64,000 nt of DNA from Lachnospiraceae bacterium (GTDB lineage Bacteria; Bacillota; Clostridia; Lachnospirales; Lachnospiraceae), in contig JAGAYR010000042.1 of NCBI GenBank assembly GCA_017940415.1, positions 56,893 to 120,892 of the forward strand, written 5' to 3'. Shown piece by piece: positions 51,262-62,229 of this stretch. The first letter of the stretch is position 1; each line of letters begins with the position of its first letter. The position numbers and the translations under genes were made by a program. The notes below the pieces were generated by a model. It was given only the letters and a program-made list of their open reading frames with translations. It had not been told where the DNA came from and did no database searches.

Positions 51262-53319
51262 ATGATGAAAACCCGCTTGAAAGTTAAGGGGCACTTAAAG
51301 TCGTATATGCGTTTCAGCATATATCTCGGTTTACTGCTCCTTGCCTTAAACGCAGCAATATTCCTCGTAAATATTCAGGCCGGAGTGCTTCTGTGTGTTT
51401 TTACTGTTTTCTATTTTGTGGTCACTCTCACCCTCTATTACAACAACAAGCCCATGATCATGAATGAGCTTGTGAGTTTCGCCACCGAATACGGACAGAT
51501 TCAGCGAAAACTCCTTAAAGAGCTCGACATCCCCTATGCCCTTCTCGACGAAGACGGCAAGGTCATGTGGACCAACTATGCTTTCGAGCAGGTCACCGAG
51601 ATCGAAGGCAAGTTCACCAAGTCAATTACCTCTCTTTTCCCCGTAATAACCGGAGACAAGCTCCCCAGGGACGAGGAAAACACAGAGTCCGAATTCGACA
51701 TCGAGCACCTGGGTAAGGATTACACCATCAAACTGAAGCGTATCCCCCTCAAGGAAATGGCTGAAAACAGTGCCATTATCGAAGCCGAAGGATACAACGG
51801 CTACCTGATCGCATTGTTCATGTTCGATAAGACCGCACTGAACATTGCCCTCCAGGAACTGGATGATCAGTCACTCTGTGTCGGAATGATCTACCTGGAT
51901 AACTTCGACGAGGCAATGGAGAGCGTTGAGGAAGTCAAGCAGAGTCTCCTTGCCGCACTGATAGACAGAAAGGTCAACAAGTACATCTCAAGCGTAGACG
52001 GCATCTGCCGTAAGATGGAGAAGGACAAGTACCTCATCATCCTCAGGAAGAAGGCCATCGCAGAGATGCAGGACAAGCACTTCGAACTGCTCAGCGATAT
52101 CAAGACCGTCAAGATCGGTGAAAACAGCATGTCCGTAACCACCAGTATCGGACTCGGAACCGACGGTCTCACATATGCCCAGAACTATGAATACGCACGC
52201 AACGCCATAGACCTTGCCCTCGGACGAGGCGGCGACCAGGCGGTCATTAAGACCAAGGATCAGGTAACCTACTACGGCGGAAAATCCCAGACGGTTGAAA
52301 AGAATACGAGAGTCAAGGCGAGAGTTAAAGCTCAGGCCCTCAGAGAGATCATCACCGCCAAAGAAAACGTGCTCATCATGGGACACAGAAATCCCGATGC
52401 CGACGCTTTCGGTGCTGCGGTAGGTATCTACTGTATCTCCAAAGTCCTCGGTAAGAACGCTTATATCGTAATGGATAATCCCAATTCCGATATACAGCCC
52501 ATCGTCGATACATTTGTAAACGGAAGTGAAGAATTCGAAGACGTACTCATCACTTCCCAGCAGGCAATAGATTTTGCATCAACCGGTTCGGTACTCGTAG
52601 TCGTAGACGTAAACAAACCTTCGATCACCGAGTGCCCCGACCTTATCAAGTATTGCAAGACTATCGTTGTCTTAGACCACCACAGGGCAGGAAACGAAGT
52701 CATCGAAAATGCCACCCTGTCATACATCGAGCCTTACGCATCCAGTGCCTGCGAGATGATCTCCGAGATTCTCCAGTATGCTGCGGATAACGTTAAGATC
52801 AGGCCTGAAGAAGCAGACTGCATGTACTCCGGAATCATGGTCGACTCAAACAACTTCCAGAGCAAAGCAGGTGTAAGAACATTTGAAGCTGCCGCATTCT
52901 TAAGAAGATGCGGAGCAGACGTAACAAGAGTCCGTAAGATGTTCAGAGCGGACGCATCCGAATACAAAGCAAAAGCTGATGCCGTATCACAGGCTGAGAT
53001 CTACCGCGGAGCATATGCAATTAGTATCTGTACCGCAGACGATTGCCCCAGCCCCACCGTCATCGGAGCGCAGGCAGCCAACGAGCTCCTCAACATCAGA
53101 GGCATCAAGGCAAGCTTCGTACTTACAGAGTTCGGCAGCAAGATCCATATAAGCGCAAGATCCATAGACGAAGTCAACGTTCAGCTCATTATGGAGCGCA
53201 TGGGCGGAGGCGGACACCTCTCCGTAGCGGCATGTCAGCTTGAAGGAACACAGATAGAAGAAGCTATCGGTGAACTCAAAAATACAATAGATTCTATGAT
53301 GGAAAGCGGTGAGATCTGA
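51262..53319 (+). CDS. gdpP: Cyclic-di-AMP phosphodiesterase GdpP
   Basis: Membrane enzyme that degrades c-di-AMP, controlling potassium, turgor and wall homeostasis. It has 685 aa: two transmembrane helices (about 16-36 and 42-60), a PAS-like domain (about 70-170), a degenerate GGDEF domain (about 175-330), then DHH (GHRNPDADAFG at 374-384, DHH at 472-474) and DHHA1 (MGGGGHLSVAA). The PAS-GGDEF-DHH-DHHA1 order is diagnostic. Its stop overlaps the rplI start (TGATG), the conserved gdpP-rplI-dnaB arrangement of Firmicutes. Confidence 0.97.
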   Translation: MMKTRLKVKGHLKSYMRFSIYLGLLLLALNAAIFLVNIQAGVLLCVFTVFYFVVTLTLYYNNKPMIMNELVSFATEYGQIQRKLLKELDIPYALLDEDGKVMWTNYAFEQVTEIEGKFTKSITSLFPVITGDKLPRDEENTESEFDIEHLGKDYTIKLKRIPLKEMAENSAIIEAEGYNGYLIALFMFDKTALNIALQELDDQSLCVGMIYLDNFDEAMESVEEVKQSLLAALIDRKVNKYISSVDGICRKMEKDKYLIILRKKAIAEMQDKHFELLSDIKTVKIGENSMSVTTSIGLGTDGLTYAQNYEYARNAIDLALGRGGDQAVIKTKDQVTYYGGKSQTVEKNTRVKARVKAQALREIITAKENVLIMGHRNPDADAFGAAVGIYCISKVLGKNAYIVMDNPNSDIQPIVDTFVNGSEEFEDVLITSQQAIDFASTGSVLVVVDVNKPSITECPDLIKYCKTIVVLDHHRAGNEVIENATLSYIEPYASSACEMISEILQYAADNVKIRPEEADCMYSGIMVDSNNFQSKAGVRTFEAAAFLRRCGADVTRVRKMFRADASEYKAKADAVSQAEIYRGAYAISICTADDCPSPTVIGAQAANELLNIRGIKASFVLTEFGSKIHISARSIDEVNVQLIMERMGGGGHLSVAACQLEGTQIEEAIGELKNTIDSMMESGEI

Positions 53320-53765
53320 TGAAGATTATTTTACTCAAAGATGAAAAGAAATTAGGCAAGAAAGGCGATATCATCGAAGCAAGCGACGGATACGCAAGAA
53401 ACTATATTCTCCCCAAGGGAGTAGGCGTCGAGGCAACTCCCGCCAATATGAACACTCTTAAACTCCAGAAGGCTAATGCCCAGAAGGTTGCCGAAGAAAA
53501 GCTCGAAGATGCCAAGGCACTCGCAGAGAAACTCTCCAAGATCACGGTTAAGACCACCATCAAGACCGGTGCCGGCGGACGTGCATTCGGTTCCATCTCA
53601 TCCAAAGAGATTGCCGAGGAGTGCAAAGCTCAGCACGGTATTGAACTCGATAAGAAAAAGATCGTTCTCGACGATGCCATCAAGGCACCCGGAACTTACA
53701 ACGTTCAGGTTAAGATCCATCCCGAAGTTACAGGAACTTTAAGCGTCAAAGTCGAAGAGGCTTAA
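53319..53765 (+). CDS. rplI: 50S ribosomal protein L9
   Basis: Large-subunit protein of 148 aa with two globular domains joined by a long helix. The N-terminal domain has the family block LGKKGDIIEASDGYARNYILPKG in modified form and the C-terminal domain binds 23S rRNA in homologues. It overlaps gdpP by one base and dnaB begins one base after its stop. Confidence 0.98.
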   Translation: MKIILLKDEKKLGKKGDIIEASDGYARNYILPKGVGVEATPANMNTLKLQKANAQKVAEEKLEDAKALAEKLSKITVKTTIKTGAGGRAFGSISSKEIAEECKAQHGIELDKKKIVLDDAIKAPGTYNVQVKIHPEVTGTLSVKVEEA

Positions 53766-53766
53766 C

Positions 53767-55149
53767 ATGGACGGATACAGCGAAAATGTCATCAAGAAAA
53801 TAATGCCCCATGACGACGATGCGGAAAGAGCTGTACTCACCAGCATGCTCATGTCCTCCAAGGCAATAGCCGAGGCTCAGGAGATCATCAAACTCGGTGA
53901 CGAATTCTATAACCGCGTTTACGGCATCATCTACGATACAATCGTCGAAATGGAAAATAACGGGCTTAAGGTAGACCCTGTCACGCTCAAGGATAAGCTT
54001 GGTGAGAAGGAAGTTACCGCCGAGGTCGCAAGCCTCAAATTCCTCATGGATATCATGAAGGACTCTTCTTCCAGCACCAGTGCCAATGTCACCTACTATG
54101 CCCAGATAGTCCACAAAAAGGCGGAGTCCAGAAGCCTTATCAAAGCTGCTGAATCCATTGCAGAGGAAGGCTATCGCGACGATACCGATGTCCAGGACCT
54201 TTTCAATGTGGCCGAAAAGAGAATCTACGATGCCACCCAGTCCAGGATTGTAAGAGACATCAGACCTATTGACGAAGTTTTCTTCGATGCCCTTACCAAT
54301 GTCTCCAATGCATACAGAATGCAGGGTAACATCACCGGACTTGCCACGGGCTTTACGGATCTGGATTTCTTCACATCGGGATTCCAGAGATCGGACTTCA
54401 TCCTTATCGCAGCAAGACCTTCAATGGGTAAGACCGCATTTGCACTTAACATCGCAGAGCACATGGCTCTTAAGAACGGCAACGGTGTCGGCATTTTTTC
54501 ACTGGAAATGAGCTCGACCCAGCTTGCAAACAGACTTATGTCCATGAACTCCAGAGTAAGCGTATCGCTCCTTCGAAGCGGTAAGATCTCCGGCGATGAC
54601 TACCAGAAGATTACCGAGAGCGGTACTCTTTTCGGACGAAGCGGATTGTTCATAGACGATACACCCGGTATCAGCGTAGCGGAACTCAGATCCAAGTGCC
54701 GCAGACTTAAGAGCGCGGGCAAGCTCGATATCATCTTTATCGACTACCTCCAGCTGATGACAGGCTCGGGCCGTGCAGAGAGCAGACAGCAGGAAGTCTC
54801 CCAGATTTCCAGAGAATTAAAGGGACTTGCCAGAGAATTGGACATCCCCGTAGTCGCACTCTCACAGCTCTCACGTACCGTAGAAAGCAGAAAGCCTCCC
54901 AAGCCCATGCTCTCTGACCTGCGTGAATCCGGAGCTATCGAGCAGGATGCCGACGTTGTTATGTTCATCTACCGTGAGGACTACTACAACAAAGACACTA
55001 AGCGTAAGAACGTTTCGGATATAATCATCGCCAAGCAAAGAAACGGCCCGGTCGATGAGTTCCCTCTCGTATGGCTGCCCGAATACACCAAGTTTGCCAA
55101 TATGAGCAAGGATGAAAAAGAAAAACTTAAATCCCACGGCGAAGAATAA
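53767..55149 (+). CDS. dnaB: Replicative DNA helicase DnaB
   Basis: Hexameric fork helicase of 460 aa. The N-terminal helical domain (about 13-115, DDDAERAVLTSML) and RecA-like motor are clear: Walker A AARPSMGKT with Lys222, Walker B DIIFIDYLQLM, and the C-terminal arginine-finger block LRESGAIEQDADVV. GAGG of the rplI end serves as ribosome site. It is the last gene of gdpP-rplI-dnaB. Its loader is encoded at 24-25 kb. Confidence 0.98.
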   Translation: MDGYSENVIKKIMPHDDDAERAVLTSMLMSSKAIAEAQEIIKLGDEFYNRVYGIIYDTIVEMENNGLKVDPVTLKDKLGEKEVTAEVASLKFLMDIMKDSSSSTSANVTYYAQIVHKKAESRSLIKAAESIAEEGYRDDTDVQDLFNVAEKRIYDATQSRIVRDIRPIDEVFFDALTNVSNAYRMQGNITGLATGFTDLDFFTSGFQRSDFILIAARPSMGKTAFALNIAEHMALKNGNGVGIFSLEMSSTQLANRLMSMNSRVSVSLLRSGKISGDDYQKITESGTLFGRSGLFIDDTPGISVAELRSKCRRLKSAGKLDIIFIDYLQLMTGSGRAESRQQEVSQISRELKGLARELDIPVVALSQLSRTVESRKPPKPMLSDLRESGAIEQDADVVMFIYREDYYNKDTKRKNVSDIIIAKQRNGPVDEFPLVWLPEYTKFANMSKDEKEKLKSHGEE

Positions 55150-55158
55150 GACATAAAA

Positions 55159-55187
55159 AAAGCGCAGGTTCGAAACCTGCGCTTTTT
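55159..55187. terminator. Terminator of gdpP-rplI-dnaB
   Basis: GCGCAGGTT pairs with AACCTGCGC around a 3-base loop, flanked by A7 and T5. It lies between convergent dnaB and the ferredoxin gene and can serve both. Confidence 0.9.
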
Positions 55188-55200
55188 CTTTGCTATTTAA

Positions 55201-55371
55201 TTAAGCCTGCTCGATACAAGCAACGGGGCACTGACCTGCGCATGCGCCACAGTCAACGCACTTATCCTTGTCGATCTCGAACTTGCCGTCGCCCATGCTG
55301 ATAGCTCCAACAGGGCACTGTGCCTCGCATCCGCCACAGCAGATGCAGCCTTCGCCAATCTGATATGCCAT
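55201..55371 (-). CDS. 2[4Fe-4S] clostridial-type ferredoxin (56 aa)
   Basis: Small electron carrier of 56 aa, too short for many gene-finding cutoffs. Two cluster motifs are present: CICCGGCEAQCP (about 9-20) and CVDCGACAGQCP (about 38-49), the CxxCxxCxxxCP arrangement twice. AAGGAGG lies 9 bases before the ATG. It is the minus-strand gene next downstream of pflA (108-bp gap) and so may donate electrons to the radical-SAM activase or serve fermentation generally; this link is inference. Confidence 0.95.
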   Translation of the reverse strand: MAYQIGEGCICCGGCEAQCPVGAISMGDGKFEIDKDKCVDCGACAGQCPVACIEQA

Positions 55372-55479
55372 AATACATTTCCTCCTTACAAATACTTCTA
55401 ACCCTACAACCGATATTTTAAACTAATAGTCTGACAATTACAAGAAATTAGCGAGTTAGTCAGAACTAATCTTTCATAG

Positions 55480-56262
55480 TCACTTATGACTAAAATCTTC
55501 CCCCGCTTCTGTAAGTTCTGCCCTTCTCTTCTTGATGCCCTCGATGATAACCTTCTTCTTTTCGATAAGAACCTTGGGGTCCATAGGCTTAACATCCTTA
55601 AGGGGATAATCGATACCAAGCTTCTCATACTTAACCTTACCCATGTCATGATAAGGAAGCGCATCCAATGCTCTGAGATTATGGAACTGTCCGAGGAAAT
55701 ATCCGAGATCATAGAGATACTTGTCATCATCGGTCCATCCGGGAACGACTACATGGCGGATCCACATGTCGACTCCCTTCTCCTGAAGATAAAAAGCAAA
55801 CTTAAGGATATTGGTATTTGGCTGGGATGTGAGCTTCTTGTGATGCTCGTTATCGATATGCTTGATATCCAGCATGACGAGATCCGTTACCTTCACGAGT
55901 CTGTCATGCTTGGCCATCATCTCTGGGTTATCGGGATTAAACATGATGCCCGAAGTATCAAGGCAGGTATGAATACCTTCCTTTTTGCAGAGCTCGAAAA
56001 GCTCAGTTACGAAATCAATCTGAACAAGAGGCTCTCCTCCGGTTACGGTGATCCCGCCTCCGTTCATGTAGAAGCTCTCGTTTCTGTGATACTGCTCGAG
56101 TATATATTTAGGCTCCATTTCGGTTGCGCCCACCTGATCCCAGGTATCCGGGTTATGGCAGTAGAGGCACCTCATGGGGCATCCTTTTGTAAAAACAACA
56201 AATCTTGTGCCGGGACCGTCGACGGTTCCGAAGCTTTCCAGCGAATGGATTTTTCCGATCAT
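55480..56262 (-). CDS. pflA: Pyruvate formate-lyase activating enzyme
   Basis: Radical-SAM enzyme of 260 aa that installs the glycyl radical on pyruvate formate-lyase. The cluster motif is KGCPMRCLYCHNP (CxxxCxxC), preceded by GTVDGPGTRFVVF, and the SAM-binding GGEP segment (VTGGEPLVQ) follows. GGAGG precedes the ATG. It lies downstream of the split pfl genes, separated from them by a terminator. Its substrate here must be the 81-aa radical-domain protein, alone or docked on the core. Confidence 0.97.
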   Translation of the reverse strand: MIGKIHSLESFGTVDGPGTRFVVFTKGCPMRCLYCHNPDTWDQVGATEMEPKYILEQYHRNESFYMNGGGITVTGGEPLVQIDFVTELFELCKKEGIHTCLDTSGIMFNPDNPEMMAKHDRLVKVTDLVMLDIKHIDNEHHKKLTSQPNTNILKFAFYLQEKGVDMWIRHVVVPGWTDDDKYLYDLGYFLGQFHNLRALDALPYHDMGKVKYEKLGIDYPLKDVKPMDPKVLIEKKKVIIEGIKKRRAELTEAGEDFSHK

Positions 56263-56321
56263 ATTCTCACCTCCGTTACCTGATTATCTTACCACATTTG
56301 GGGCATTTATAGGCATAAAAA

Positions 56322-56357
56322 AAGGTCTGTCGCTTTTGCGACAGACCTTCTTATTTA
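56322..56357 (-). terminator. Terminator after the pfl genes
   Basis: A perfect 12-bp stem (AAGGTCTGTCGC with its complement) and TTTT loop, with TTTTTTT on the minus-strand exit side. It separates the pfl cistrons from pflA. Confidence 0.9.
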
Positions 56358-56393
56358 CTTTTAAACAGCACACGGATTGCTCCGTAGCTTCGC

Positions 56394-56639
56394 TTAAAAA
56401 GACTCGTGGAAAGTACGAGAGATAACGTCTGCCTGCTGCTCGGGAGTAAGCTTAATGAAGTTTACTGCATATCCGGATACGCGGATAGTGAGCTGAGGAT
56501 AATTCTCGGGATGCTGCTGAGCATCGAGAAGAGTGTCTCTGTTGAGAATGTTAACGTTAAGATGGTGGCCACCCTTGGTAGCATAACCATCGAGAAGATT
56601 CACAAGGTTTGAAACCTGTGCGGTAGATGCTTCTGCCAT
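56394..56639 (-). CDS. grcA: Separate glycyl-radical domain of pyruvate formate-lyase (GrcA-like)
   Basis: An 81-aa protein equal to the C-terminal radical domain of PflB. Residues 10-81 follow the PflB tail closely: [35 protein letters not shown] with the radical Gly56, and the end [10 protein letters not shown]. In E. coli, GrcA is a spare part that replaces a damaged PflB tail; here the core lacks this tail, so the protein is predicted to be an obligatory subunit. It has its own AGGAGG site and follows two hairpins, which may set its level relative to the core. Confidence 0.95.
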
Positions 56640-56673
56640 GATTATTTCCTCCTGGTAAAATGTGTATACTCAA

Positions 56674-56736
56674 AAATCGCTGATGCGATTTCTTCGTGAT
56701 ACGATCAAAAATTTCTCTGGGAATTTTGATCGTATC
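56674..56736 (-). other. Two hairpins between the 67-aa gene and grcA
   Basis: GATACGATCAAAA and its complement form a 13-bp stem starting at the last base of the 67-aa gene's stop codon. A shorter AAATCGC/GCGATTT stem with TGAT/ATCA loop follows, ending in TTTTTGAG. They may be partial terminators or mRNA-stability elements between cistrons. Confidence 0.6.
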
Positions 56737-56939
56737 TACTGATAATCGTCGATACCCTGATGGAGCGTAGGAACGCTGCAAGCCAATGGGGTTCTGGAAC
56801 AATCCGTGCAACCCATGGTCGTAACATCCTTAACATCTGACTGATCTTCCGACGTGTCTACATTGACATGTCCGGTGCCGCTTGCGAATCCATCATCGAG
56901 CATCTTTACAAGATCATCTATCATGTCTTTCTGATCCAT
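56736..56939 (-). CDS. 67-aa Cys-containing protein between pflB core and grcA
   Basis: Not recognised as a known family. Residues 9-28 (LVKMLDDGFASGTGHVNVD) parallel the start of the neighbouring radical-domain protein ([19 protein letters not shown]), i.e. the helix-turn that leads into the PFL radical domain, but the radical Gly loop is missing. The rest is acidic then Cys-bearing, with Cys44, Cys47 and Cys54 (CTDCSRTPLAC). AAAGGA upstream of the ATG and the conserved spacing argue that it is translated. It could be an assembly, protection or metal/redox factor for the split enzyme; this is inference. Confidence 0.7.
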   Translation of the reverse strand: MDQKDMIDDLVKMLDDGFASGTGHVNVDTSEDQSDVKDVTTMGCTDCSRTPLACSVPTLHQGIDDYQ

Positions 56940-56979
56940 AGTGGTATCCTTTCCGTTTATTTATTTTTCCGGCCCTTCC

Positions 56980-57010
56980 GGCCAAGGTACCGGGAACCCG
57001 GTACGTGGCC
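56980..57010 (-). other. Strong hairpin between pflB core and the 67-aa gene
   Basis: GGCCA..GTACCGGG pairs with CCCGGTAC.TGGCC, with small bulges, about 22 bases past the core stop codon. On the minus strand a second GGCCGGAAGGGCCGG stretch and GAAAAATAAATAAA follow. It may protect the core mRNA or cause partial termination. Confidence 0.6.
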
Positions 57011-57032
57011 TTCGGAGCTTCGAAACATTTAA

Positions 57033-59075
57033 TTACTTGCTGAGGTCAAGGTCGATGTCGCCTGCAAATACCTTGTCATCCTTGCCGAGTGCACCGGGGA
57101 TGATGGTGAAGGTATTGGAGATTCCGTCCTGAGCATCGTTGAAAGGAAGCTTGGATACGGAAGAAAGTGAAGCGACAGCACCGTGGGTATCACGACCATG
57201 CATAGGGTTAGCTCCGGGAGCGAAAGGCATGCCCTTCTTACGTCCGTCGGGAGTGTTTCCGGTTGCCTTACCATAGGTAACGTTTGAAGTGATGGTAAGG
57301 ATTGAGGTGGTAGGAACACCATCTCTGTAGGTGTGATGACGACGTACAGCGGTCATGAACTTGTGAACGATCATCTGAGCGATCTCGTCTACACGGTCAT
57401 CGTCGTTACCATACTTAGGGAACTCACCGGTGGTCTTGAAGTCGATGATGATACCGTCCTCATCGCGGATAACTTCAACCTTAGCATACTTGATAGCTGA
57501 AAGTGAGTCAGCAACGATTGAAAGACCTGCAATACCGGTTGCGAAATATCTCTTAACGTTCTTGTCATGAAGAGCCATCTCTGCTCTCTCATAGCAATAC
57601 TTATCGTGCATGTAGTGGATGATGTTGAGGGTGTTAACGTAAACCTCAGCCTGCCACTCCATCATGTCGATGAACTTGTCCATAACATCATCGTAGTCAA
57701 GGACGTCACCGGTAACAGGGCGGTACTTAGGTCCAACCTGCTTCTTGGTAACTTCATCGATACCACCGTTAAGAGCATAAAGGAGACACTTAGCAAGGTT
57801 AGCACGTGCTCCGAAGAACTGCATCTCTTTACCGATAACCATGGAGGATACGCAGCATGCGATACCGTAGTCATCGCCGTGAACAACTCTCATGAGATCG
57901 TCGTTCTCGTACTGGATTGAAGAAGTGGTGATGGAGATCTTAGCGCAGTACTTCTTCCAAGCCTGAGGAAGTCTGGTTGACCAGAGAACGGTAAGGTTGG
58001 GCTCGGGAGCTGCACCAAGGTTCTCAAGGGTGTGGAGATAACGGAAAGAGGTCTTGGTAACCATGTGTCTTCCGTCAACGCCTACGCCGCCAAGAGACTC
58101 GGTAACCCAAACGGGATCGCCTGCGAAGATCTGGTTGTACTCGGGAGTTCTTGCGAACTTAACGCAACGAAGCTTCATGATGAAGTGATCTACGAATTCC
58201 TGGATCTGCTCCTCGGTGAAGGTTCCGTTTGCGAGGTCACGCTCTGCATAAATATCAATGAAAGTGGAGGTACGGCCAAGGCTCATTGCTGCACCGTTCT
58301 GCTCCTTAACGGATGAAAGATATCCGAAGTAAGTCCACTGGATAGCTTCCTGAACGTTTGCTGCGGGCTTGGAGATATCGCATCCGTAAGATGCAGCCAT
58401 CTCTTTCATCATCTTGAGAGCCTTGATCTGCTCGCTGAGCTCTTCACGAAGACGGATAACGTCATCAGTCATAACGTAATCGGTAGAAAGCTTCTGCTCT
58501 TCCTTGTCCTCGATAAGTCTGTCGATACCATAGAGAGCTACTCTACGATAGTCGCCGATGATACGTCCTCTTCCGTATGCATCAGGAAGACCGGTAATGA
58601 TGTGTGAAGAACGGCAAGCTCTCATCTCGGGGGTGTAAGCATCGAAACATCCCTCGTTGTGAGTCTTACGGTTTACTGCGAAGAAAGCGGAAACCTCGGG
58701 ATCAACTTCATATCCGTTGTCCTGGCAAGCTTTCTCTGCCATTCTGAGTCCGCCCCAAGGCTGAAGTGAACGCTTGAAAGGCTTGTCGGTCTGGAATCCG
58801 ACGATCTTCTCCTTGCTCTTGTCAAGATATCCGGGGCCGTGAGAAACGATGGTTGAAACAACCTTGGTGTCCATATCAAGAACGCCGCCTGCTTCTCTCT
58901 CCTTCTTCTGAAGATCGAGAACCTGTGCCCAAAGATCCTTGGTAGCCTGTGTAGGTCCTGCAAGGAAGCTCTCATCTCCGTCATAGGGATGATAGTTTCT
59001 CTGGATGAAGTCACGGACATTTACTTCTTTGTCCCACTTACCTGTTTTGAAATCCTGCCATTCAGGTCTTTCCAT
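57033..59075 (-). CDS. pflB: Pyruvate formate-lyase core lacking the glycyl-radical domain
   Basis: Catalytic body of formate C-acetyltransferase (pyruvate + CoA to acetyl-CoA + formate), 680 aa against about 760 for intact enzymes. The active-site pair Cys407-Cys408 ([10 protein letters not shown]) corresponds to Cys418-Cys419 of E. coli. The protein stops after [19 protein letters not shown] with TAA, just where intact PFL continues into its radical domain; that domain is the separate 81-aa gene. There is no frame-shifted remnant in between. The start follows AGGAGG. It is promoter-proximal and likely the most strongly expressed gene here. Confidence 0.96.
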
Positions 59076-59183
59076 TTAGTAGTTCCTCCTATTGAAATAT
59101 AGAATTTAAATGTTACGAAGGTCTGTTTTCACGGAGTTTTCGGCATTACATAAAGACTCCTGAACCGCTTCGTGAGTGATTCA

Positions 59184-59213
59184 ATTATAGTTAAGATTGT
59201 ATACAGAAGTCAA
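59184..59213 (-). promoter_or_regulatory. pfl promoter
   Basis: Minus-strand TTGACT (59208-59213) and TATAAT (59184-59189) with an 18-bp spacer. A TGTATACAAT palindromic site lies within the spacer. The leader is about 100 bases. Confidence 0.75.
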
Positions 59214-59276
59214 GGTAAAGCCGTGTACTTTTTTACGTACAAGCCCCATGAAACCTGACTTTTTTGTGTATACAAT
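59196..59276. promoter_or_regulatory. Pair of GTATAC-centred operator-like sites at the pfl promoter
   Basis: ATTGTATACA (59196-59205) lies between -35 and -10, and its inverted copy TGTATACAAT lies at 59267-59276, 71 bp upstream. The core TGTATACA is palindromic and resembles HutC/FadR-type GntR operators. Together they could anchor a loop. Confidence 0.45.
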
Positions 59277-59399
59277 GTTTCACGGAAGATAAATTTTTAA
59301 TTAAAAACAAAAACATATTGGTCAAATTGGTTTTTATGAGATATACTGTCTTGACGTAACGAAATATTTCAGATTAACAATCACTGTACGGAGCAGATT

Positions 59400-59702
59400 A
59401 TGGATACCGAATTAAAAGAAAACCTTGATATGGAACTTGAAGACGAAGAAGTCTCCATGGACGGACAGCCAGTAAGAGAAGTCTGCGGAATCAGATCCAA
59501 CATGACTCTCGGAGACATCATGGCCAAGAAACCCGAAGTCATCCCCATCCTCATGGAAGCAGGCATGCACTGTGTAAGCTGTCCCGCCGCTCTTATGGAA
59601 ACCCTTGAAGAAGCAGCCATCGTTCACGGAATCCTCATCGATGAACTTATGGATTACATTAAAGAGTCCCTTGAAAGAGACGCTAAGCCCGAGGAAGAAT
59701 AA
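59400..59702 (+). CDS. DUF1858 (redox-disulfide) protein
   Basis: A 100-aa protein with an acidic N-terminus and a DUF1858 domain (about 34-95), seen as NMTLGDIMAKKPEVIPILMEAGMHC followed by VSCP; the HCVSCP pair is the CxxC of the family. Such proteins are associated with hybrid-cluster proteins and redox handling in anaerobes. A further Cys lies at about residue 29. It is divergent from the pfl locus and followed by a terminator, so it is monocistronic; a link to pyruvate formate-lyase protection is only a guess from position. Confidence 0.85.
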   Translation: MDTELKENLDMELEDEEVSMDGQPVREVCGIRSNMTLGDIMAKKPEVIPILMEAGMHCVSCPAALMETLEEAAIVHGILIDELMDYIKESLERDAKPEEE

Positions 59703-59714
59703 TCAAAGCTTACC

Positions 59715-59752
59715 AAAAAGCCCGCCCGGAGAATTCCGGACGGGCTTTTATT
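59715..59752. terminator. Bidirectional terminator between the DUF1858 gene and the chemoreceptor
   Basis: AAAAGCCCGCCCGGA pairs with TCCGGACGGGCTTTT with one mismatch and a GAAT loop. It lies between convergent genes. Confidence 0.88.
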
Positions 59753-59772
59753 ATGCCTTAAGAGCTCAGGTA

Positions 59773-62229
59773 TTAAAGTCTGAATCTTCCTACGATGCCG
59801 GTAAGATCCGATACAACCTGCTTGGTCTCGTTAACCTTATCGATACTGTCTGCTGTTTCAGCCGACATCTCGGAAGTCTTCTCAGCGATATCAACAACAC
59901 CGTGGGATGCTTCGGTAACGGTGGTATCGATTCCTTCGATGGAGGATACGATCATATCCATATCCTGAGCAAGCTCCTGAATGCTGGTTCTGATCTCGTT
60001 CATGCTGTTTCCGAATGTATCGGCATCGACCTTGTACTGTTCACTGACTTTGCCGAATTCAGCATAATCCGCAAGAACGTTGGTCTCAAGGAAGTTAGTG
60101 GTCTGAGTCAGACAATCCGACATCTGACCGACGGCACTGTTAACTTCATCTACGATGCTTCCGATGTTCTTAACAGCTTCCGAAGTCTGAGTAGCCAGAT
60201 TGGAGATTTCGGTTGCAACAACCGCAAATCCTCTTCCTGCCTCTCCTGCTCTTGCAGCCTCAATGGAAGCATTAAGTGCAAGAAGTCCGGTCTGTGAGGA
60301 GATGGCCATGATGGTTCCGGTAAGTTCGTTGATCTTGTTAACAGCCTGGGAAGCAACAATGGCTTCTTCAGATTTAACCTTAACGGACTCATAGATCTCG
60401 ATGGTCTTCTTGCTGGCCTTTTCGGTGGTTGCAGCAAGTTCTCCGGCACGGCTTAATACTTCGTCGGAAAGCTTGGTTCCTTCGCCTGCAAGATCATCTA
60501 TGCCGCGTGCGCTCTCACGTACATTGGCAACATTCTGAGCAATGGTAGTGGTGGATGCTGCGGTCTCCTGCATTCCTGCAGCAAGCTCTTCGGTTGTAGC
60601 GGAGTTATCTTCGCATACGGTTCCGACCTTATCAATGGTGGTCTGAAGAACATCAACATTGGAATTGATATTGTTGCTTGCTTCGGATATGGAACCGACC
60701 ACATCTCTCAGATTATTTCTGGTAGTCGCAAGAGCTCTTGCAATGGATCCGACTTCGTCCTTTCTCTTCTCGAGAACTGCGGAATCCTTGTCTTCGGTGA
60801 AGTCGTAGTTTGCGGTCTTGTTGAGTATGGGAACAAGCTGTTCAAGTGCTTTGAGCAGGAACATTGAGAATCCCGCAACAAGAATGATCGCAGCGATGAT
60901 ACCGATGATACCGTAGACAATGAGGCCGCTTCTCATAGCGGAAACGCCTGCCATCATCTTATCTCTGTCAGCGGTAACGATTACGATGTTTCCGTTTCTT
61001 GTAAATGCATAACCCGCAACCTTGTCAGATCCTTTGTACTCATAAGTACATGATCCGTTCGGAACAGTCTTACCTGCCTGAAGATCGGTTACGATTCCCT
61101 TAACAGCTGCATTTTCAACCGGCTGTCCGATCTTCTCGGGATTGGTGTGATAGAGCATGGTTCCCTCGGGAGATACCATGTATGCGTATGATCCTTCTAC
61201 GCCGGACATCTCGATCTTACCGATCAAAGTATCGTAGTCGATCTTGATGAGTTTGTCATAGTCAGCGGTTACAAGAACTATATTACCGGTATCGGTGAAG
61301 GAGTATCCTGCAAGTTTAAGCGCATCCTTGTACTCATAAATGACATATCCGTCATTTACTGTCTTGCCGGCCTGAATGTCTGCTACGATTCCCTTAACTG
61401 CAGCGTTCTCAACAGGCTGTCCGATCTTATCGGGATTGGTATGCCAGAGCATGGTTCCGTCGGGAGATACCATGTAAGCATAAGATCCTTCGACTCCGTC
61501 TATCTCGATATTTCCGAGAAGAGTATCATAATCGATCTTCATGAACTCATCGTAGTCTGCGGTAACGATGAGAATATTTCCCGCATTTGTAAATGCATAA
61601 CCCGCAAGCTTAAGAGCATCTTTGTATTCGTATAAAACAGAACCGTTCTCAACAGTCTTGCCTGCCTGAAGGTCTGCAACGATTCCCTTAACTGCCGCAT
61701 TTTCTACGGGATTACCGATCTTCTCAGGATTTGGATGCCAGAGCATTTCTCCGCTGGGAGATACCATATAAGCATAAGATCCGGCAACGTCCTTGATCGC
61801 AACATTCTTAAGAACGTTATCCAGCTGAGCAGTATTAAGTGCCGCACCGCCTGCGAGATCAACTGCCTTCACGGCTTCCTCAGCCAGATTCTGTGCATAG
61901 GACTTATAAACCGTCTCTCCGAATTCTCTTGAGAAATTAATGGAGATTGCAGCTTCCTGGGCCAGATTCATTGCATATCCGCCGTAAGCCTGCTCTCCGA
62001 ACTCAGTAGCGAAGTCAACACCTATTGCCGCTTCTTCAGCAAGATTCTGTGCGTAATTGAGATATGTGTCCTCCATCGCGCTCGATGCTCTGTTCGAAGC
62101 AACGAGTACCTGAACACATATCACAACGAACACGATAATACTGACTGCCAATGCAATCTTCGTGCTCATCTTGTGAATAAACGTAAGCTTACCCTCGCTC
62201 TGTAGCGACCCGGAACTGTTTGCCGCCAT
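59773..62229 (-). CDS. Methyl-accepting chemotaxis protein with three tandem sensor modules
   Basis: Chemoreceptor of 818 aa. TM1 is at about 23-45 and TM2 at 435-460. The outside region begins with three 26-aa helical repeats (Tyr59, Tyr85 and Tyr111 of Y-A-x-N-L-A-x-E-A), then three near-identical Cache-like modules of 98 aa (GSYAYMVSP at about 150, 248 and 346, each with [20 protein letters not shown] and AGYxFTxxGNIxxVTAD). A HAMP-like segment and the signalling domain with [16 protein letters not shown] follow. GGAGGT precedes the ATG. Ligand unknown; Cache modules often bind small carboxylates or amino acids. Confidence 0.95.
60955..61806 (-). repeat. Three tandem 294-bp repeats inside the chemoreceptor gene
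   Basis: The three Cache-like modules are repeated with an exact 98-codon period, and several blocks (for example CCGTTGAAAATGCAGC-type sequence) are close at the DNA level. The last copy has a divergent end where it leads into TM2. Confidence 0.85.

Follow-up and report, generated by a model that had tools for sequence, protein, structure and literature searches.

Among the main routes by which anaerobes turn pyruvate into acetyl-CoA and formate is pyruvate formate-lyase (PFL), an enzyme with a radical that oxygen destroys. In the 64,000-nucleotide stretch of Lachnospiraceae DNA analyzed here (the window), the catalytic core and the glycyl-radical domain of a PFL are encoded by different genes. 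The locus raises the question of whether such pieces make up a working enzyme, and of how its active site is kept in order when the radical is carried by a separate protein.

Organization of the pfl locus

The genes lie on the minus strand in the order core, middle, glycyl, activase, ferredoxin. As a preliminary description had stated, the core gene (59075..57033) encodes 680 aa with adjacent Cys407-Cys408 and ends at a true TAA. Its product scores 1090.8 bits against the PFL1 model TIGR01255 (cut-off 994.2), and C407-C408 is invariant in 41 of 41 aligned rows. The match ends at position 665 of 744, and the core carries only the first part of PF01228, without the glycyl loop, so that the same-chain glycyl domain of PFL1 is absent; the C-terminal tail of this core contains no Cys. 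The glycyl-radical subunit, likewise correctly described, is an 81-aa protein without Cys, encoded by a separate gene (56639..56394, minus strand) with its own AGGAGG ribosome site and with Gly56 in RVSGYA. It covers positions 663-743 of TIGR01255 and matches nearly the whole of the GrcA3 model NF038360 (156.3 bits, E 1.6e-46), a near miss of the curated cut-off of 158.

The radical domain had been placed immediately after the core stop, which is wrong: the gap between core and glycyl genes is 393 bases long and contains a further gene on the minus strand (56736..56939), encoding a 67-aa protein with a GrcA3-like N-half and a C-half with a GCTDCSRTPLACSVPTLH Cys motif. Upstream of this middle gene there is a weaker GGAAAGGA, whereas the core gene, like the glycyl gene, has an AGGAGG site. 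The proposal that the core and the 81-aa protein together rebuild a PFL holds in the profile matches (up to 665, and 663-743) and in a superposition over 731 residues (see below); what it missed is the middle gene.

Downstream on the same strand are genes for a PFL activase of the radical SAM type (260 aa, 55480..56262; TIGR02493, 290.3 bits, cut-off 231.75) and for a 2[4Fe-4S] ferredoxin (56 aa, 55201..55371; NF058577, 76.4 bits, cut-off 65), the latter a possible electron donor to the activase. A similar ferredoxin-like frame is found 3' of the activase at locus L047. Upstream of the operon, a divergent gene (59400-59702, plus strand) encodes a DUF1858/prismane-associated redox-disulfide domain protein.

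A candidate sigma-70-like promoter, TTGACT-18-TATAAT, lies upstream of the core gene (59184..59213, minus strand) and matches the consensus at 11 of 12 positions, in a region where the scan gave 9 promoter-like sites against 6.1 in shuffles. A 12-bp hairpin followed by a T run 3' of the glycyl gene (56316..56349) is a probable terminator between the glycyl and activase genes; its minus-strand reading was made by eye from the sequence, the automated scan having given the plus strand only. The gap between middle and glycyl genes (56640..56736, minus strand) folds into hairpins (-30.6 kcal/mol, z -5.88 for segment 56636-56745) that might set the subunit ratio; the hairpin upstream of the glycyl gene occurs once in the window. 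The hairpin upstream of the middle gene was no better than shuffles (z -1.0), and no Rfam family matched positions 53000-61000 at gathering scores.

The split is shared across the genus

The assembly (48 contigs, 84% complete) contains one PFL-core match, that of the gene at 57033..59075, and its Gly_radical matches are the two parts described here plus a 732-aa frame, a putative anaerobic ribonucleotide reductase (RNR). A PFL1 match was found in 26 of 31 genomes of the genus, none of the 31 encoding an intact PflB. The 16 genus matches over the cut-off end at positions 665-668, except in G012, where the match was joined across the TAA and reaches 704. Genome G004 also has a broken fused-type PFL fragment at a contig end. 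In two relatives of 98-99% completeness (G001 and G002) the split form stands alone, save for a weak distant match in G001 (E 5.4e-6).

When the genus relatives were read directly, the stop fell at the same place as in the core, followed by a poorly conserved spacer, which makes a sequencing error very unlikely. Three genomes (G004, G008, G014) had appeared in the profile search as one open frame of 861-883 aa, and translation gave a stop after the core in each. Read-through of the stop, joining the three genes, was also rejected, because the spacer varies between relatives and often shifts frame. Substitution ratios among 11 genus members (Nei-Gojobori, own script) gave a median dN/dS of 0.085 for the glycyl gene (48 of 55 pairs usable) and of 0.071 for the middle gene, where silent sites were unsaturated in 18 of the 55 pairs; by this measure the middle gene is under purifying selection.

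There is minimal likelihood that the break stems from faulty sequencing or assembly, that it marks a decaying pseudogene, or that the locus supplies a spare part to an intact PflB encoded elsewhere: the missing part of an 84%-complete assembly could hide another PFL gene, but the comparisons of sequence refute error and decay, with an identical break across genus and family loci and a median dN/dS of about 0.07-0.09 for both small genes, and the nearly complete G001 and G002 have the split form, one weak match aside. The preliminary description had held that the small protein must be essential, unlike the GrcA repair part, and this gains support, as the sole PFL1 of the assembly is split and repair of the GrcA/YfiD type would call for an intact PFL in the same genome, which was found neither in the 84%-complete assembly nor in the 31 genus genomes. 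Since no intact PflB was found, catalysis should depend on the free glycyl protein, whose role would then not be one of repair.

The core and the glycyl protein were also modeled, as a single read-through chain, which superposes on E. coli PFL over 731 residues (rmsd 2.1), in line with the proposed rebuilding. The alignment behind this model had 32 rows, some of them fused PFLs (the E. coli type included), and the fused rows guide the docking of the glycyl part, which is thus not independent evidence. Residues 665-816 have pLDDT below 50 on a thin alignment, and the middle protein is not resolved, so its docking draws no structural support from the model. A first fold of this chain, made on 41 rows from close relatives (mean pLDDT 41.6), was discarded.

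Distribution in the family, the class and viral contigs

Across the family, a PFL1 match was present in 214 of 250 genomes (249 genera); among the matches listed some are intact (1-744) and many are truncated near 665. Truncated cores thus appear to be common in Lachnospiraceae, and the split is not unique to this genome. The middle gene was matched in 67 of the 250, three of these matches being GrcA3 itself, which leaves 64. Relatives of the middle protein are encoded by 449 stretches of named genomes, and all of the best 80 of the 449 have the middle gene and a separate glycyl gene beside a Cys-free core end; most of these 80 are titled Lachnospiraceae, and some were already counted in the genus. 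Other families have short GrcA3-like frames too, as a sample of 341 genomes of the class showed, and 15 loci were newly fetched from this sample, one of them from the same family.

Relatives of the free glycyl protein are encoded on 15 viral contigs of up to 333 kb (L241-L255). The relative on L244 comes after a complete 680-aa split core that lacks a Cys tail; those on L243 and L255 come before a core whose sequence is broken into two frames; the other 12 contigs have no core within the fetched stretch. No middle gene was found in the viral contigs with patterns tuned to Lachnospiraceae. In L242 and L247 the glycyl relative lies beside a gene that is NrdD-like by eye, and some of these viral proteins may serve an NrdD-like enzyme.

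Composition of the middle protein

The middle gene is conserved in the genus (19 rows aligned). Its product matched nothing in Pfam or NCBIfam at E up to 0.001, and its profile gave chance-level matches to solved structures in the PDB (best E 0.73). The first 29 or so residues are related to the first part of GrcA3 (HHalign probability 94.7%, E 6e-8; with narrower profiles 59.7%, E 8.8e-5), a relation also detected by BLASTP between the middle and glycyl proteins of the window (E 7e-4). The C-half resembles the Cys motif in the core tail of loci that have core and glycyl genes alone (two-gene loci, below). The middle protein reads as a copy of the first segment of the radical subunit joined to the Cys tail of the core.

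In 14 hand-chosen diverse rows, with L094 and L096 left out, D15, G23, C47, A53, C54 and P57 are invariant. Genus members have three invariant Cys (GCTDC..LAC), and the His near the Cys is replaced in some rows by Glu, Gln, Asp or Met. A C-x6-C spacing is present in 75 of 83 middle rows and a Cys pair was recognized by pattern in 78. The five others are L017, which is cut by the contig, L095, with a wider spacing, L076, a trimmed row whose full locus has the pair, and L094 and L096, whose middle proteins stop after CxxC.

A cysteine pair in cis or in trans

Wherever the middle gene accompanies the core in genus and family loci, the core tail is free of Cys (82 of 82 loci, window included), and the core ends about 16 residues (median) past the last LG. 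These 82 comprise 79 loci assigned by profile and three by eye (L012, L079, L091); two further loci stand outside the count, L069 with no core on the fetched stretch and L072 with an unlinked middle gene, and L110 and L122 were read by eye. Conversely, all 26 two-gene family loci among the matches listed, a sample and not a census, have at least two Cys in the core's own C-terminus, as in CSNGACQIPN, CGDMACKVPT and CACCEPN, several tails having three, and the tail is longer (median 34.5 residues over 24 loci). This set holds 26 of the 27 listed truncated cores without a full middle match, G148 being left out; the N-terminal middle-profile matches in G095, G115 and G152 are GrcA3 itself. When a wider middle profile was applied to 26 chosen genomes, 11 of which are two-gene, no full middle protein turned up in those 11; the profile's matches there were to the GrcA3 N-terminus, and in one of the 11 (G122) profile positions 50-67 matched the Cys tail of the core (E 6e-5).

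At class level, 12 of the 15 loci have a middle gene or a Cys tail: the middle gene lies between core and glycyl genes in four and after the glycyl gene in one, and a Cys tail is present in seven. In the remaining three (G430, G530 and G468) the PFL is split and neither feature was found, G430 being 82% complete. Genome G032 has the middle gene on contig C64, and a Cys-free core and GrcA3 together on C11; the unlinked middle gene (L072, 2329-2601) adjoins a gene that is MoxR-type ATPase-like by eye. At L153 (G480) a Cys-tailed split core has its frame broken by a stop into 291- and 420-aa pieces.

A FastTree phylogeny of 121 cores, from which 8 short or missing cores were left out, placed 102 rows in one clade with local support of 100, of which 98 are split and four fused; outside it are 18 fused rows and one split row (L157). 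The four fused cores nested among split ones, L131, L132 (G126), L158 and L159, are likely re-fusions, judging from their place in the tree. In L132 a Cys-rich linker, TCGCEEVTC, precedes the glycyl domain, where the other 21 of the 22 fused PFLs have at most one Cys. With the tail trait coded by hand, and with L144 coded as lacking both features though a middle gene lies after its glycyl gene, the tree requires 10 switches between middle gene and Cys tail. Five independent switch pairs fall on well-supported branches and all five run in the opposite direction (sign test, p 0.0625, the best attainable with five pairs). From these comparisons, the Cys pair appears to trade places between the core tail and the middle protein.

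Possible roles of the middle protein

Two close, conserved Cys near the C-terminus, found in 78 of 83 middle rows and in 26 of 26 two-gene core tails among the matches listed, are also a mark of class I RNR. The E. coli NrdA end, DDGCESGACKI, has the C-x4-C of CSNGACQIPN and CGDMACKVPT, and in the available text of PMC11447812 the NrdA C-terminal tail is thought essential for re-reducing the active-site disulfide. NrdA is an unrelated protein, and a difference from it is that the Cys pair described here can sit on another polypeptide. Because the Cys pair is the constant element and its spacing and setting recall the NrdA end, we infer a thiol arm that would keep Cys407/408 reduced as radical subunits are exchanged. 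Our preferred reading, with a probability of about 0.55, is an obligately multi-protein PFL, presumed to be a working enzyme, with an RNR-like Cys tail, here in trans, that docks on the core and re-reduces the active site.

The core would supply the catalytic Cys407-Cys408, and GrcA3 would dock where a one-chain PFL has its glycyl domain, receive the radical from PflA at Gly56, and be needed for catalysis; being separate, it could be replaced after cleavage by O2. The middle protein would be the core's cysteine tail on its own polypeptide: its GrcA3-like N-half would dock on the core, and its presumably flexible C-half would bring Cys47/Cys54 to the active-site cysteines and re-reduce Cys407/408 when the radical subunit is absent or lost, like the tail of class I RNR. 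That subunits cleaved by O2 could be replaced cheaply, and that activity could be controlled through the ratio of subunits, both advanced in the preliminary description, is plausible.

The strongest doubts about such an arm come from the three of 15 class-level split loci in which neither Cys tail nor middle gene was recognized, to which viral L244 may be added, and from the chemistry. RNR spends a thiol pair at each turnover, whereas PFL turnover is not known to consume thiols, so the need for the arm is less obvious. The resemblance to NrdA consists of a short motif and may reflect convergence or chance. The middle proteins of L094 and L096, which end after CxxC, also count against the reading.

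A possible, though unlikely, alternative is that the middle protein acts in activation, as an adaptor or placeholder: its strand-like N-half would take the position of the N-terminal strand of GrcA3 and hold the core open so that PflA can load the radical on GrcA3, the Cys tail only aiding binding. The available text of PMC8683613 reports that when E. coli PFL is cut at 695, binding of YfiD is undetectable by ITC, and activation is 32-fold below that of PFL retaining 696-733, the cut protein being active once activated. As the natural cores end near that cut, their assembly would have to be solved in another way, and the middle N-half, related as it is to the start of the GrcA3 domain, may help. 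Against this, two-gene split PFLs have no middle gene bearing that N-half and yet keep the Cys pair, so that the constant part is the Cys pair and not the adaptor.

Small subunits exist in 4-hydroxyphenylacetate decarboxylase and benzylsuccinate synthase. By analogy, the middle protein could be an iron-sulfur or zinc small subunit, a reading that fits the three invariant Cys of the genus and the core tails with three Cys, and that we regard as distinctly unlikely, given that two Cys are invariant in the 14 chosen diverse rows, that the His varies, and that each chain offers few ligands; an Fe-S cluster shared between chains may be a variant of it. A further reading, very improbable, takes the Cys tail for a decoy that mimics the active-site loop and would hold or quench the glycyl loop. 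In its favor, IACCVSSM and LACSVPTL look alike by eye; against it, tails such as CACCEPN fit loosely.

Returning to the preferred reading of a redox-active Cys tail, it may tentatively be extended, at what we would judge below even odds: most split PFLs of Clostridia would have a mobile thiol tail, in cis or in trans, that maintains the active-site Cys while the radical subunit is swapped, an RNR-like redox arm combined with an exchangeable radical cartridge, the trans protein having come from a copied docking segment.

Relation to known systems and significance

The core matches the one-chain PflB of E. coli (PDB 2pfl/1h16) with 975.5 bits to 1h16, and both have the Cys pair, the RVSGYA glycyl loop and a nearby activase; here, in contrast, the glycyl domain is separate and a third protein carries a Cys pair. 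The 81-aa protein is a free glycyl domain like GrcA/YfiD (E. coli 6owr; NCBIfam GrcA, GrcA2 and GrcA3). In E. coli, YfiD serves to repair PFL that has been cleaved, and its N-terminus is disordered over 60 aa (PMC8683613, available text), whereas here the 84%-complete assembly yielded no intact PFL to repair. The viral GrcA3-like proteins are relatives of the free glycyl protein, one of them with a complete split core, and no middle protein was found with them by the patterns tuned to Lachnospiraceae. The best sequence matches to the core are PDB entries 38la and 38lb ('Formate acetyltransferase'; 1102.2 and 1148.2 bits), neither of which was matched by the glycyl query at E up to 0.001. In 38lb, compared without its last 34 residues, ECDMC follows the core. 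Neither entry was among the structures matched by the superposition of the read-through model. Known by their deposited names and sequences, both entries probably are split cores.

The split is not new in itself, since it is widespread, its radical subunit is close to GrcA3, and the PDB probably holds such cores. In the literature searched, whose coverage leaves out most subscription papers, we found no description of a split PFL, of GrcA3, of the structures 38la and 38lb or of the Cys tail. The same search gave none of the middle protein or of the cis/trans Cys exchange, and searches of Pfam, NCBIfam and the PDB left the middle protein without a name.

With a natural split form common in Lachnospiraceae, the idea of a spare part becomes the normal design, and proteins that bear the annotation autonomous cofactor GrcA3 may in many cases be essential subunits. 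The Cys exchange gives a clear, testable prediction on how a glycyl radical enzyme keeps its active-site thiols in order. For the gut bacterium, a central fermentation enzyme is apparently built from three separately made pieces, and the third protein, with its conserved Cys pair, may help to explain the upkeep of an oxygen-sensitive enzyme.
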